From Pedobacter sp. SYP-B3415 (GTDB lineage Bacteria > Bacteroidota > Bacteroidia > Sphingobacteriales > Sphingobacteriaceae): a stretch of DNA of 64,000 bases. Position numbers and translations under genes: made by a program. The stretch lies in contig NZ_RXNQ01000022.1 of NCBI RefSeq assembly GCF_004138205.1, positions 124,001 to 188,000 on the forward strand, written 5' to 3'. Positions 21,369 to 47,872 of the stretch are shown piece after piece; within the stretch, counting starts at the first letter, position 1, and every line of letters begins with the position of its first letter. Under the pieces are notes generated by a model that was not told where the DNA came from, searched no databases, and worked only from the letters and a program-made list of their open reading frames with translations.

Positions 21369-22798
21369 CCAGGAAAAATCTGATCTATATATATTCTTCG
21401 CTTATTCCCCTACTGTATTTAAGTAGCTGTTCGGCCCCTGAAAAGGTTCTTGAACAGGAACTGAAGACGATGCCGGGATCTTTTAACGTGCAGGTAGCTC
21501 CAGAGGCCCCGCACCTGAAATGGCAGCAGATCTTTAGCGAACCCGGGTTGCAGCGGCTGATCGATACAGCGCTCGCCAATAACTTCGATCTTAAAACGGG
21601 CATGCAGCGTATTGAGATTGCTGGTGCGCAGCTTCGGCTCAGCCGGGCGGCTATGCTGCCGGGCCTTAACGCACAGGTTAGCGGCGGTTTAGACCGCTAT
21701 GGCAATTATACAATGAATGGCGTCGGGAATTATGACACCAATTTTTCACCCAATATCGACGAAAACAGGCGCATTCCCTACCCGGCAACGCCCGATTATT
21801 TTGCAGGGTTCCGCAGTTCCTGGGAAATCGATATATGGGGAAAACTTTCAAAAAGAAAAGAGGCAGCGTTTAACCGGCTGCTGGCAAGCAGGCAGGGACT
21901 GCAATGGTTCCAGACCCAGCTGATCAGCGAAGTTGCCGCCCGCTATTTCGAACTTGCCGCGCTTGATAAACAGGCGGAAATACTGACACACAATATCAGG
22001 CTCCAGGAAAAAGGTGTCGAAATCGTTGAAGCACAGCTTGCCGGCGGACGCGCAACGGCACTGGCAGTAAAACAGTTCCGGGCGCAGCTTTTTGCTACCC
22101 GGGGGCGTGCGTATGAGATCAGGCAGGATATCAGCCGCGCGGAGAACGAGCTGAACAATCTGCTTGGGCGCTTTCCGGAGAAGATTGAGCGCGATACGGC
22201 AATGATAACGCGTACCGTACCGAGAACCCTGTTTGCGGGTATTCCGGCACAGGTTGTTTTAAGCCGGCCTGATGTGCGCCAGGCTGAATTCGAATTGAAA
22301 GCCGCACGCGCAGATGTGACGGCTGCGCGTAAGGCGCTGTTGCCAAGCCTCACACTGGATGCCTATGCCGGATATAACTCGTTCAAACTTCCGCTGCTGT
22401 TTTCGCCCGGTTCGCTTGCCGCCGGTGTGCTTGGCGGACTTACCGCGCCGATCTTCAACCGTGGCACACTGAAAAACGGAAAACGCATTGCCGATGCCGA
22501 ACAGCTCCAGGCCTTTTACAACTATCAGCGCCAAATCATCAATGCTTATCAGGAAGTGTCTACCCAGCTTACCGCAATGGATAACCTTCAGCACGCCTAC
22601 CGGCTGAAGACAGCGCAGGTGCAGGAACTCAATGATGCCCTCTCGACCGCCAACGACCTTTATCTGGCCGGCTATGCAAGTTATCTTGAAGTGATCGTTG
22701 CACAGGGAAGTGTCCTGAACGCCGAGATGGAGCAGGTCGACCTGAAACGTCAGTCTTATGGCGCCATGATCGCATTGTACAGGGCGCTTGGGGGATGA
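21365..22798 (+). CDS. Outer-membrane efflux channel lipoprotein (TolC/NodT-like)
   Basis: 477 aa. The N-terminus has a lipobox (LYLSSCSAPE, Cys22). Two OEP repeats make up the TolC-type beta-barrel and helical tunnel: LQRLIDTALANNFDLKTGMQ, FRSSWEIDIWGKLSKRKEAA (a family hallmark), then VVLSRPDVRQAEFELKAARADV and LTAPIFNRGTLKNG. It completes the tripartite efflux system, its start overlapping the pump stop. It ends the operon and is followed by the repeat-rich element at 22799-22962. Confidence 0.95.
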   Translation: MTRKNLIYIYSSLIPLLYLSSCSAPEKVLEQELKTMPGSFNVQVAPEAPHLKWQQIFSEPGLQRLIDTALANNFDLKTGMQRIEIAGAQLRLSRAAMLPGLNAQVSGGLDRYGNYTMNGVGNYDTNFSPNIDENRRIPYPATPDYFAGFRSSWEIDIWGKLSKRKEAAFNRLLASRQGLQWFQTQLISEVAARYFELAALDKQAEILTHNIRLQEKGVEIVEAQLAGGRATALAVKQFRAQLFATRGRAYEIRQDISRAENELNNLLGRFPEKIERDTAMITRTVPRTLFAGIPAQVVLSRPDVRQAEFELKAARADVTAARKALLPSLTLDAYAGYNSFKLPLLFSPGSLAAGVLGGLTAPIFNRGTLKNGKRIADAEQLQAFYNYQRQIINAYQEVSTQLTAMDNLQHAYRLKTAQVQELNDALSTANDLYLAGYASYLEVIVAQGSVLNAEMEQVDLKRQSYGAMIALYRALGG

Positions 22799-22962
22799 AA
22801 GTAGGTTGTAAGTTGTAGGTTATAAGTTTTAGGTTATAAGTGTCTGGGTGCACAGCCCCTCATGGCGGCCTATGCCGCGCAGAGGGTACGTTCCCATTTT
22901 TCGGCGTAAGAAGGGTTTGGCACCCTGTCTTAATACTTACTACTTACTACTTACTACTACCC
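22799..22962. repeat. Intergenic simple-word element with inverted ends, between convergent genes
   Basis: The left part is built of related words (TTGTAAGT, then TTATAAGT twice, each preceded by TAGG). The right part is TACTTACTACTTACTACTTAC. The core between them has GTCTGGGTGCAC near 22841 facing GGCACCCTGTCTTAA near 22922, and GCGGCCTATGCCGC near 22866. The whole is an imperfect large inverted structure sitting where the efflux operon (+) and the lipoprotein gene (-) converge. It may act as a bidirectional transcription end or be a small repeated element. Confidence 0.6.
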
Positions 22963-22966
22963 CAAT

Positions 22967-23515
22967 TTACCACCGTGGGTCTGCGAATCTGCCCGTTATT
23001 TCTCTGAAGTGATAGACTTCTGTGTAGCCGTTTTCGAAGTATTTGTCAGAGAATTTTCCGCGGCCCTGGTGTGTTGATGCTTTGATAATGAGCCGGTCTT
23101 TTCCGATGATGGCGTAATGGTAATTAAACTGTCGCCGCGCAGTATGAACGTTCTGCAAGATCAGCCTGTCGGCCTGGTTTTTAAAATACCCCTGAAAGAG
23201 CGTGCGCGTTTTTAACGCTTCCTGGTTGAATACTTTCAGGATTGAGTCTGCCGGGGCTGAATCAGCTAATCCTAAGACCATGTTGAATTGTCGGCCGGGA
23301 TAAAACTTATACATTCTCCCGGGCTTAGTGTATGTTGCTGTGTCGCCCTTGCGCTGTTGAAGTACATATACGCCATCGGTTCGCAGGAGCGCGCCTGAAG
23401 ATCCGTTGTCAGGCTGCCGGTAGAATGGGTAATCCTCCTGCTGGTAAAAATGCCTGTTCATGCATCCCGTAACAACAGCGCACAGTACAATGAAAATCGG
23501 CGTATATCTTCTCAT
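22967..23515 (-). CDS. Hypothetical lipoprotein
   Basis: 182 aa from Met at 23515 (MRRYTPIFIV), which gives a clean lipoprotein signal with Cys in VVTGCMNRHF; a start at 23542 adds nine residues. I recognise no named domain. The mature protein has a soluble alpha/beta pattern (GVYVLQQRKGDTATYT, GRMYKFYPGRQFNMVLGLAD, LIIKASTHQGRGKFSDKYF). It is probably anchored to the periplasmic side of a membrane. It is convergent with the efflux operon and divergent from the PEP-mutase-like gene. No function is proposed. Confidence 0.75.
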   Translation of the reverse strand: MRRYTPIFIVLCAVVTGCMNRHFYQQEDYPFYRQPDNGSSGALLRTDGVYVLQQRKGDTATYTKPGRMYKFYPGRQFNMVLGLADSAPADSILKVFNQEALKTRTLFQGYFKNQADRLILQNVHTARRQFNYHYAIIGKDRLIIKASTHQGRGKFSDKYFENGYTEVYHFREITGRFADPRW

Positions 23516-23641
23516 GGCCCTTACAAGGTAATGATAATTCACAAATTACAGTTACGCTCCGTGCAGAGAAAACCAGGTTGGCAACAGAGCGCTTAAACGA
23601 TTTTCTGATCTAACGAGGCGTTTAAACACCTGTTTTTTTAG

Positions 23642-45694: not shown

Positions 45695-46810
45695 TTATTT
45701 CATAACTGTTATTTTTCTTCCTTTTATTTTAAACTGATGAGCATGGATAAGGGAGAGATTTGCAAAAAGCTCATTAATACTGTTTGAACGGGAAAATGTA
45801 CCGCCAAGGCGGCTGTTTTCTGTTCCGGGCTGAAGTTCGACTTCGACATCATACCAGCGGCCAACACGGGCCATGGCCTGGGCAAGTGTTTCGTTCTTAA
45901 AAATAAAGTATCCGTTTTTCCAGGCGATGGCCTCTTCTGCATCGACCACGTTAACGCGAATGCCGTCTCTGTCGCTATGCATCAGCGCTTCCTGCCCAGG
46001 ATGAAGAATTGCAGTCTCCCGGCCCTTGTTTACCTGCACTTTCCCCTCCAGCAGTGTGGCCCGCACTTCCTTGTCGCCGGGATAGGCCGCTATATTAAAA
46101 TGTGTTCCGAGAACGGTTACCGTTGTTTCGTTGCTGACTACTTTGAAACGCTGGCCCTGGCGCTTTGCAACCTCGAAATATGCTTCGCCGCTTAATTGAA
46201 CGAGCCGTTCATTGCCATTAAATGCTGCCGGGAACCTGAGTTCCGAGCCCGAGTTCAGCCACACTTTCGTTCCGTCTGCAAGGGTAAGCTGGTATTCGCC
46301 CCCACGCGGAATGCGCAGCACATTTGTCTGGTCTGTAGTCGCACCGGTGGTTTTCTGTTCGTAGTTCAGACTGCCCGGCTGGTTGGCTATAACCGAAACA
46401 CCCGCCTGTTCGGCGAGCTTTCCCGTTTGTCCGCTAAGTTCCACCTGGCTTCCGTCTGCCAGTACGAGTATAGCTCTAGAGCTGCCGGGAACAACGGGAG
46501 CCTGTTTATGAACCGTCATATTCGCCGGACTGGTTCCCGTTTCATTAGCAGGTTGTGAGAAGAACAGGAAGCCGGCAACGAGCACGACCGCCGCAGCAGC
46601 GTAAGGCCACATACGTATAAGGATGGGTTTCCGGTTAATGCCGAGACGGTTACGCAGCTGTTTATTCAGGGCATTTAAACGGTCATGGTTAACATCAGAG
46701 GCCTCGCGCGCTTTTTCCAGATACCAGCTTTCAAGAAACGTGCGTTCCTCTGCGGTGGAGTTGCCGTCGAGATATTTTTGAATAAGTGTGGCAATGTCTT
46801 TCTTGTCCAT
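45695..46810 (-). CDS. FecR-family anti-sigma factor
   Basis: 371 aa. The cytoplasmic N-terminus (about 1-65) is followed by one membrane helix (about 67-86, YAAAAVVLVAGFLFF). The periplasmic FecR domain has RIPRGGEYQLTLADGTKVWL and ELRFPAAFNGNERLVQLSGE; a DUF4974-type C-terminal domain ends in HAHQFKIKGRKITVMK. It holds the sigma factor encoded upstream and receives the signal from the STN domain of the SusC encoded downstream. The space to the sigma gene (495 bp) is unusually long and repeat-filled. Confidence 0.95.
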   Translation of the reverse strand: MDKKDIATLIQKYLDGNSTAEERTFLESWYLEKAREASDVNHDRLNALNKQLRNRLGINRKPILIRMWPYAAAAVVLVAGFLFFSQPANETGTSPANMTVHKQAPVVPGSSRAILVLADGSQVELSGQTGKLAEQAGVSVIANQPGSLNYEQKTTGATTDQTNVLRIPRGGEYQLTLADGTKVWLNSGSELRFPAAFNGNERLVQLSGEAYFEVAKRQGQRFKVVSNETTVTVLGTHFNIAAYPGDKEVRATLLEGKVQVNKGRETAILHPGQEALMHSDRDGIRVNVVDAEEAIAWKNGYFIFKNETLAQAMARVGRWYDVEVELQPGTENSRLGGTFSRSNSINELFANLSLIHAHQFKIKGRKITVMK

Positions 46811-47305
46811 TCAGGCTGATATTTGGTCGCTTTGTATAGATAAGACGAACTTCAGGGAAGGGAGTGTAAGATGATTTGGAAAAAAAGTTAAAAAGGGAGA
46901 TTTGCTTGAGACCTCGAGTAGTATATAGGCGTTCGTAGTTCGTATTTAGACGTGGCGCAGAAACCCCTCAGCCAGTTATGCGAATTGCGGGTTTAGGCGC
47001 TATTTCTTTGAAGTGTGAGATTTGAGATTTGCGTCTTGAGACAGGGAGCAGAACCCCTCGGCCGGTTATGCGTAGTGGGGGGGGGGTGTCAATGCCGTGG
47101 TCTTTCGTCCTTGATCCTTTTTCTTTGATCTCATTGAGGGGTTAAGCGCCGTGGTCTTTCGTCCTTGATCCTTTTCTTTGATCTCATTGAGGGGTTAAGC
47201 GCCGTGGTCTGGTCGTCCTGATTCCTTTTTCTTTGATCTCATTGAGGGGTTAGGCGCCGTGGTCTTTAATCCTGGTTCCTTTTTATTTGGTCCCGCTGAG
47301 TTCCA
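46811..47305. repeat. Repeat-filled spacer between sigma and FecR: word repeats, paired CCCCTC elements, G10 tract, tandem array
   Basis: No gene is supported in these 495 bp. From left: TTCGTAGTTCGTA words near 46932; GCAGAAACCCCTCAGCCAG near 46957; TGAGATTTGAGATTTG words near 47016; a second GCAGAACCCCTCGGCCGG near 47049; a run of ten G at 47077-47086; then a tandem array at 47094-47300. The array repeats contain GAGGGGTTAAGCGCC, complementary to the CCCCTC elements. Confidence 0.75.
47094..47300. repeat. Tandem repeat array, about 3.8 copies of a 53-55 bp unit
   Basis: Units start at GCCGTGGTCT at 47094, 47148, 47201 and 47256 (lengths 54, 53, 55, and a partial last). Each has CCTTTTTCTTTGATCTC and TTGAGGGGTTA. 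The first two full units are nearly identical. The array ends 5 bp from the 3' end of the sigma gene. Confidence 0.9.
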
Positions 47306-47872
47306 TTAAAAAAACATCATCATAAGCGTGCTCAGCTTTGCCCGGAGAATCTTCAGCGCATTGCTGATCTGCTTTTTTACGGTATGATCAGAAATATCCA
47401 GCGTAAAGGCTATTTTCTCATAAGAAAACTCATGCCGGCGGCTCAACTCAAACACTTCACGCATTTTTGCAGGTAAAGCCTCTATTTCCTGGTCGATGGC
47501 ACGCGACAACTCTTTCTCCCTATAGGCCTCATCGGTATAACGCGCTCCCTCCGTATAATAGATGGCCAGCTCTGCCAGGTACCGATCATGAACTTTATCC
47601 CGTGCAATACGGTCAAAAATCCGGTTGCGCACGCAGGTATAAAGAAATGCAGATACAGATCGCCCGATTACAAGCGTATCACGTTTTTCCCATAAGCTCG
47701 CGAATACATCCTGAACCACATCCATAGCCGCTTCTTCATCTTTGAGCAAGCGTATGGAATGGGCCAATAACGGGCGCCAGAAACGCTCGTAAATTTCCCC
47801 AAATGCCGAAAAATCGCCATCGTGAAGAGCTGTTGCAAGCTCCTGATCTGAAAGGGCTGCGGATTGGCGCAT
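47306..47872 (-). CDS. ECF RNA polymerase sigma factor (locus 2)
   Basis: 188 aa, ECF length. Region 2: FGEIYERFWRPLLAHSIRLL and AAMDVVQDVFASLWEKRDTL; region 4: ALPAKMREVFELSRRHEFSY and IAFTLDISDHTVKKQISNAL. This matches the Bacteroidota ECF group that pairs with FecR and STN-type SusC. It should direct transcription of the downstream susC operon when polymer is sensed. A full TAnnTTTG promoter is not visible upstream. Confidence 0.95.
   Translation of the reverse strand: MRQSAALSDQELATALHDGDFSAFGEIYERFWRPLLAHSIRLLKDEEAAMDVVQDVFASLWEKRDTLVIGRSVSAFLYTCVRNRIFDRIARDKVHDRYLAELAIYYTEGARYTDEAYREKELSRAIDQEIEALPAKMREVFELSRRHEFSYEKIAFTLDISDHTVKKQISNALKILRAKLSTLMMMFF

Follow-up and report, generated by a model that had tools for sequence, protein, structure and literature searches.

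Background

Heptamer repeats are known from bacteria, but no function has been established for them (PMC4692102, PMC4679880), and there are earlier reports of heptamer repeats from cyanobacteria. Sets of TAACTGA heptamers are found in Beggiatoaceae, Cyanobacteria and some Bacteroidetes (PMC4679880). Like the sequences described here, these are 7-bp tandem units that are mostly intergenic, with indels mostly in 7-nt steps and with several words mixed in some Bacteroidetes gaps (PMC4679880). They are direct repeats with no particular RNA structure predicted on their own (PMC4679880), whereas the genome of Pedobacter sp. SYP-B3415 has several words in fixed polar blocks round a hairpin core, and in its relatives two opposite arms pair and their words change together. 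The heptamers GGGAATC and GGGGA(T/C)T of Xanthomonas and Nostoc are also alike in that they are over-represented in intergenic DNA and vary in length and sequence between close relatives (PMC4692102). They are G-rich and of G-quadruplex type (PMC4692102); the present words are not, and display a RAG/CTY register instead. When compared with heptameric SSRs in general, the repeat shows the characteristic period of 7 above other periods, but it does not have one word per array without larger order, as the multi-word order is fixed.

The BOX element of Streptococcus pneumoniae is a composite, modular repeat with a variable number of inner modules, enrichment between convergent genes and a predicted stem-loop (PMC3049150). 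Ordered modules with variable inner copy number are likewise present here (block order and tandem cassettes). No heptad structure is found in the passages bearing on BOX modules (PMC3049150), whereas in the present repeat the word modules are of several interchangeable kinds and the core is palindromic. BIME and REP sequences are mosaics of short extragenic modules with a palindromic unit, and are linked to RAYT transposases. The repeat is similar in being a short-module mosaic in extragenic space with a short palindromic unit (147 linker matches, a core z value of -4.4 and clusters between ORFs), but no association with a RAYT (PF01797) gene was seen, as the repeat does not flank either PF01797 locus. 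In a partial search of the open-licence literature, no description was found of arm-pairing heptads with exchanged words or of the present mosaic. Intergenic heptamers and composite BOX repeats come nearest among known repeats.

Two sites in the window

The window, i.e., the whole stretch of 64,000 nucleotides that was analysed, has its main site between a FecR gene and an ECF sigma gene, where a mosaic occupies 379 bp of the gap (positions 46919-47297). A second site follows an outer membrane efflux gene identified by Pfam (stop at 22798). Features of both are listed in Table 1. A first-pass annotation, made without database searches, had reported two copies of a CCCCTC core near 46957 and 47049, short repeated words beside each copy, a 54-bp array carrying the complement of the core, and the same plan of words, core and words at 22799-22962. 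All of these claims held. The core copies are where they were placed, GCAGAAACCCCTCAGCC from position 46957 and GCAGAACCCCTCGGCC at 47048-47063; TTCGTAGTTCGTA and TGAGATTTGAGATTTG adjoin them; and the 54-bp unit includes TTGAGGGGTTAAGC. The 54-bp array represents a succession of cassettes, each of word W1 and linker L, and GAGGGGTT within it is the linker also found between cassettes at many other sites. Searches of the window gave no Rfam match above gathering score and no tRNA.

Table 1. Positions of the repeat blocks and neighbouring genes at the two window sites
Feature	Position	Strand	Basis or remark
Heptad arm, W3 type	22799-22841	-	immediately 3' of the stop codon of the efflux gene
Core/loop with GTGCACAGCCCCTCATGGCGGCC, separates the two arms	22842-22922		sequence and tokens
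Heptad arm W7, (CTTACTA)n	22923-22966	+	ends at the stop codon of gene 22967-23542 (-)
FecR gene	45695-46810	-	ORF caller and Pfam
Intergenic gap, 495 bp	46811-47305		ORF calls, Pfam, block tokens
Left-arm word W6, inward reading TAGTATATAGGCGTTCGTAGTTCGTATTTAGAC	46919-46952	-	0.94 identity to W6 seed
Core 1, GGCGCAGAAACCCCTCAGCC...GGGTTTAGGCGC, hairpin type	46950-47001	+	sequence and homologous cores elsewhere
Left-arm word W5, contains TGTGAGATTTGAGATTTGCGTCTTGAGAC	47011-47042	-	0.81 identity to W5 seed
Core 2, AGGGAGCAGAACCCCTCGGCCGGTTATGC... with G run	47043-47096	+	arm-to-arm junction listing and tokens
3.6 tandem 54-bp cassettes, each W1 and linker TTGAGGGGTTNNGCGCC	47094-47289	+	TRF score 311, tokens
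ECF sigma gene	47306-47872	-	ORF caller and Pfam

The two arms of the second site are complementary to each other. Pairing of 22923-22966 with 22799-22841 gives a score of 31, against 15.6 +- 3.1 (maximum 26) for 500 letter shuffles. Four sites in the genome, this one included, score at least 28 for arm pairing.

Words, polarity and recurrence in the genome

The site in the sigma/FecR gap is one copy of a dispersed, polar and modular repeat of this genome, in which blocks with an outward 7-bp register surround a GC-rich hairpin core. A scan of the genome (4.47 Mb, 37 contigs) for the extended core AACCCCTCNGCCNGTTATGC with up to 3 mismatches gave 45 matches, compared with 1 for the reversed pattern. 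For the linker GAGGGGTTNNGCGCC, which joins many cassettes of the repeat, there are 147 matches with up to 1 mismatch and 2 for the reversed control. Failure of the cores to recur beyond chance would have refuted the first-pass annotation; in this genome-wide search the recurrence exceeds chance. The non-coding family that it proposed, in which the core is common and the flanking words differ, is supported by 53 clusters of at least two blocks, but its details needed changes. The words are more than the repeats of 8-12 bp first described: each block spans about 30-40 bp, has a 7-bp beat and is fixed in orientation relative to the core. They represent a small set, W1 to W7, with strict polarity. 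Besides the shared CCCCTC core, a second hairpin core occurs that lacks CCCCTC, and in some cores one half has given way to another repeat, termed H.

Blocks were named by hand from printed contexts and then mapped by a tokeniser on fetched stretches. The words are W1 (CTTTCATCCTTGTTCTTTTTTCTTTAGTCTCAT), W2 (CTTTCAACTTTTCACTTTTGACTTTCAACT), W3 (ACTTACAACTTAATACCTACAACTT), W4 (CTGACTCATGATTCATGGCTCTTGGTTC), W5 (GAGATTTGAGATATGAGATTTGAGTCCTGAGAC, inward), W6 (TAGTATATAGGTATTCGTAGTTCGTATTTAGAC, inward) and W7 (CTTACTACTTACTA); further blocks are two longer repeats, H/h and J-I, and the linker L. The 53 clusters (39 kb) follow a common order, with W5 and W6 left of the core, W1 to W4 right of it, and all words pointing outward with few exceptions. 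Counts along and against the cluster direction are 94:0 for W1, 45:0 for W2, 37:4 for W3 and 54:0 for W4, compared with 3:73 for W5, 0:83 for W6 and 1:2 for W7. The longer blocks are similarly polar, with 33:0 for H, 0:33 for h, 27:0 for I and 28:1 for J. Cluster direction was defined by the majority of the W1-W7, I and J blocks themselves, and nearly all clusters were fetched for a core or linker match and are not a random sample.

In no pair of clusters does the longest match attain both 100 bp and 97% identity, and therefore recent spread between sites is not seen. The 692 cluster pairs with a longest match of at least 100 bp show a median identity near 78%. A cluster on contig C4 has two adjacent units of about 500 bp that are nearly identical by eye, which shows that local duplication can be recent. 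Many linker or core matches are within about 700 bases of contig ends (contigs C4, C6, C10, C11, C17 and C19, and also C20, C21, C32, C35 and C37); it is therefore probable that the mosaics interrupt the assembly and that more copies are hidden. Several mosaics share a stretch of about 490-560 bp that has no block assignment and is flanked by W4 or L blocks, e.g., at about 1975-2517 in locus L070, with similar stretches in L068, L069, L072, L077 and L083. Part of it matches G100:C2:904342 at 82%.

The core hairpin

A total of 65 junctions between a left arm and a right arm were catalogued. Many have the form ...GGCGCAAAACCCCTC-GGCCGGTTAGGGCGTATT-GAGGGGTTAGGCGCC..., which is a hairpin; other junctions display a different, shorter hairpin (GGCGCATACCCTGCAT...GCGCC). 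The core consensus, composed by the author after MAFFT alignment of the cores, folds with a delta G of -34.1 kcal/mol (z -4.4). The alignment is shifted by one base in several rows, and no covarying pairs were counted.

The seven-base register

Read outward, the words hold a 7-base register, CTYNNNN. Self-similarity was determined in 20 stretches picked by core or linker match and not by periodicity, with a threshold of 20 of 28. Lag 7 gave 66 segments and lag 14 gave 11, and each of the other lags from 4 to 15 gave 0-2. In the 396 word tokens of the genome, CTY pairs number 536 at a spacing of 7 and at most 59 at other spacings; because the word seeds were used to find these tokens, the count is a property of the seven words. 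Whole site sequences show 244 RAG and 472 CTY pairs at spacing 7, and no more than 67 and 112, respectively, elsewhere.

Pairing between the outer arms is mostly absent in this genome. The within-site score is 12.75, compared with 11.87 when arms are permuted, and the observed mean over 52 sites is equalled or exceeded in 336 of 5000 permutations. What remains is mainly the register and the core hairpin.

Placement between genes

Clusters are situated between ORFs, often only a few to some tens of bases from a stop or start codon. Convergent gene pairs flank 16 of 43 clusters, compared with 68 of 377 background pairs (p = 0.0076). Divergent gaps hold 5 of 43 clusters versus 57 of 377 in the background, which is not significant, and the remaining 22 clusters with a gene on both sides are neither convergent nor divergent. 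The counts of 16, 22 and 5 were made by hand. The 43 clusters omit 6 of 49 that are at contig ends, and at least three have a doubtful small neighbouring ORF. Background pairs are adjacent genes in random stretches and in the window, found with a simple ORF caller; they are not matched for gap length, and convergent pairs make up 29 of the 184 whose gap is 50-400 bp.

The sigma/FecR gap was compared with that in five relatives: Sphingobacteriaceae bacterium DW12, a Sphingobacterium MAG, a Sphingobacteriales MAG, Arcticibacter svalbardensis and Pedobacter arcticus (loci L145-L148 and L152). The genes are adjacent in all five, and the gap is roughly 80-165 bp as extrapolated from tblastn ends. 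The window gap thus exceeds those of the relatives by about 330-415 bp, which agrees with the 379-bp mosaic. Eight of 11 loci were compared, and five of the eight were used; three Dyadobacter loci (L149-L151) were excluded for a partial or weak FecR match, and three distant loci were not compared. When the whole 2178-bp region was searched against 145 genomes of the genus, the gap part matched only another site in the same genome, among the matches inspected. No close relative was found for a nucleotide-level comparison with an empty site.

Distribution in related genomes

Although the mosaic is almost confined to this genome, heptad arms are more widespread. In 200 other genomes of the family the linker is at about control level, with a maximum of 12 matches in genome G100, and those matches that were inspected look like chance. 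A 22-mer of W6 has no exact match in the genome contig collection, from which records of the present genome are possibly excluded. Uniqueness of the words to the species was rejected, as W5- and W2-type words are present in many genomes of the genus. A 755-bp mosaic stretch matches 89 of 145 genus genomes (own genome included), chiefly through H/h and the words W5 and W2 in the matches inspected. One copy in G100 has the order W6-W5-core-W2-W1, as in the present genome, with weak seed matches of 0.61-0.78.

The H/h repeat GTCATTCNGAGCGNAGCGAAGNATCT was considered as a defining part of the family and rejected. It is a separate repeat, present in 31 of 151 family genomes (own genome included), and no W words were seen beside it by eye in 20 fetched loci (L224-L243). 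This repeat, GTCATTC[AT]GAGCGNAGCGAAGAATCT, is found in many genomes of the genus and forms an inverted pair in several loci.

Loci fetched from relatives display plain heptad arrays, often as two opposite arms, and include rpoB-rpoC-like and isc-like gaps (gene names assigned by eye). The word TTTGAGATTTGAGA is found in 118 of 251 family genomes (own genome included) and in 13 of 25 genera; the reversed word is found in 20. In a sample of the phylum it is present in 54 of 395 genomes, and outside the family in 49 of 384, compared with 18 for the reversed word. From these counts it is chiefly a feature of the family. Twenty family loci were hand-picked for TTTGAGATTTGAGA, and an opposite arm was scored when at least 17 of 21 letters of a degenerate pattern were present. 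Such an arm lies 10-170 bp downstream in 11 of the 20 loci and upstream in none, and the forward word recurs downstream in three and upstream in none. Twelve loci gave no Rfam match. Random stretches of 20 genomes of the genus show no excess at lag 7 (12 of 145 gaps), and a second check of random gaps gave the same result. These lag counts reject the possibility that heptad hairpins are pervasive in all gaps.

Conservation of arm pairing in the iscU-iscA gap

At least six of the heptad loci represent the gap between iscU and iscA, five by translation (L261, L270, L277, L283 and L285) and one by eye (L252). Pfam confirmed NifU_N and Fe-S_biosyn, in one protein each from such a locus. The locus was selected after heptad arrays had been seen there. 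IscA was then searched in 49 family genomes and the best 30 loci were fetched, of which 29 gave a gap (L316 is without an IscU match). The gap is at least 60 bp in 22 of the 29, in 12 genera, and under 60 bp in seven, which include three small genomes of one genus (5-9 bp). In the present genome it is 27 bp, without arms.

In 21 of the 22 longer gaps the best self-match, among lags 4-12, is at lag 7. For the other gaps in the 30 isc loci, lag 7 is best in 13 of 53 and lag 8 in 11. The register is visible in both arms: the left 45 bases hold 29 occurrences of RAG at spacing 7, against at most 5 at any other spacing, and the right 45 bases hold 27 of CTY at spacing 7, against at most 7. Folding is more stable than that of dinucleotide shuffles, with a mean z of -3.3 and with 18 of 22 below -2. 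The words themselves differ even within genera. One genome has the word pair CAAGAATCAAG...CTTGATTCTTG, and others have GTTGTAAG...CTTACAAC, TAGTATATAG...TACTAAATACTA and GAGATATGAG...CTCAAATCTC.

When the left arm is aligned with the reverse complement of the right arm, the score is 24.4 for arms of one genome and 15.6 for arms from different genera. The observed sum was not reached in any of 20000 permutations, either for all 22 gaps or with one gap per genus (n = 12). Control alignments at n = 12 are reached in 209 (direct), 629 (reversed) and 259 (complement) of 5000 permutations, and at n = 22 in 20, 1168 and 96, respectively; for pairing the number is 0 in both. The direct excess at n = 22 (20 of 5000) implies that shared composition within a genome contributes, but pairing still stands out. 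Thus the inverted heptad arms of the iscU-iscA gap keep register and pairing while their words are exchanged. The same is indicated, less firmly, for other loci of the family. That both arms change together in orthologous copies is shown for this gap in the relatives, and not for the window's own sites.

The iscU-iscA gap, with its changing words and its maintained register and pairing, provides a direct test of whether heptamer repeats are selected. It also tests whether template switching rewrites both arms of a hairpin at once. The finding points to a type of structure that would be invisible to sequence-based family searches, and Rfam gave no match.

A proposed explanation and its alternatives

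The account favored here is that heptad hairpins are continually remade by slippage and template switching and have a function at gene boundaries. Both the mechanism and the function are inferred and there are no RNA data; the account as a whole could as readily prove wrong as right. Slippage by 7 bp would spread a word through an arm, and one arm would be rewritten from the other by template switching or gene conversion, with complementarity kept. Unequal exchange between linkers would duplicate or drop cassettes, e.g., in the 54-bp array, and copies of whole elements may occasionally arrive in other gaps, by a route that is not known. In the present genome most arms would have lost their pairing and kept the register, with pairing moved to the GC core; exchange from linker to linker would have multiplied cassettes, and hairpins would have expanded into mosaics. 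When transcribed, the arms or the core are predicted to form a stem loop that marks a gene boundary, i.e., the end of the upstream message and the start of the next. This putative role at transcript boundaries is inferred from placement and structure and is not shown. Words would be free to drift because such a role, as proposed, needs structure and not sequence.

A bolder reading, taken as a single joint claim, is possible but less likely than not. It views the sequence as an intercistronic element that is inherited as a rhythm, RAG/CTY every seven bases in opposite arms, and that remains in the same gap in many genera while its words are swapped wholesale in both arms. It may be kept by hairpin-templated copying and read as a structure at gene boundaries, and the present genome may represent its escape into a mosaic family.

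The strongest alternative is a purely mutational origin, where 7-bp slippage, hairpin-templated repair and recombination produce the arrays with no benefit to the cell. Arrays would accumulate where they are least harmful, behind genes and between convergent genes. Several observations are in favor of this. A convergent bias is typical of mobile or parasitic repeats in pneumococcus (PMC3049150), slippage has been proposed for heptamers (PMC4692102), and hairpin stems can arise and persist through template switching (PMC8794818). Heptads are also present in frame inside a decarboxylase ORF supported by Pfam and inside a kdtA-like ORF assigned by eye. Alone, however, a mutational origin leaves unexplained the heptad arms of the iscU-iscA gap in 12 genera when random gaps show no excess, and it also leaves the fixed RAG/CTY letters unexplained. 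It is nearly as likely as the transcript-boundary account, but by a small margin the evidence leans against it.

Non-autonomous mobile elements of the MITE or REP/BIME type, with a transposase acting in trans, are an unlikely source. In support, the 53 dispersed clusters share one internal order, an operon gap is several hundred bp longer than in relatives, and there are two Y1_Tnp (PF01797) matches in the genome. On the other hand, the element ends are heptad words of varying kind, and no constant terminus or target duplication was seen by eye at 20 sites; a close relative that would provide an exact empty site is lacking. There are no near-identical copies at different sites, and the two Y1_Tnp loci (3.2 and 2.4 kb examined) are without any module. 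A RAYT/REP origin found no support, as both PF01797 loci lack modules.

It is also improbable that the repeats are bidirectional terminators, possibly of Rho type, where a GC hairpin is followed by a C-rich, G-poor tract from either side; there are no termination data. The outward C/G ratio is 1.98 in W1, 4.52 in W2, 5.06 in W3, 3.39 in W5 and 2.31 in W6, YC dinucleotides recur at 7 and 14 nt at 3.6 and 3.8 times expectation, and there is the excess of convergent gene pairs round clusters. Against this, the ratio is only 1.00 in W4 and 0.46 in the linker, and the T-rich tract of W1 begins well beyond the stem, so that there is no canonical intrinsic terminator. Arrays of protein-binding sites, with RAG/CTY read every 7 nt on DNA or RNA, are a very unlikely explanation. 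In their favor, the RAG/CTY letters hold their register although the remaining four are variable, and a post-transcriptional binder has been proposed for TAACTGA heptamers (PMC4679880), but arm pairing would be needless in a simple site array and no factor was identified.

Other heptad arrays in relatives

Heptads in frame within a diaminopimelate-type decarboxylase ORF (Pfam) are located at about 1009-1050 of L262 (genome G268), where they encode the peptide SQISNLKSQIS. Those within the ORF that is kdtA-like by eye are at about 1012-1110 of L247 (G173). In both of these ORFs the heptads are in the stop-free orientation only. An in-frame heptad insert, SNLKSQISNL, is at the same gene position in two genera (L267:53-952 in G026 and L278:240-1118 in G171), and the L267 copy of the gene matches VitK2_biosynth. 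A TGATGAG heptad array, which is another word of the same kind, is upstream of an ORF at about 427-460 of L239 (G135). Locus L257 (G248:C25:36601-38700) is a tandem array where a W5 arm alternates with the opposite arm several times, with a near-constant spacer.
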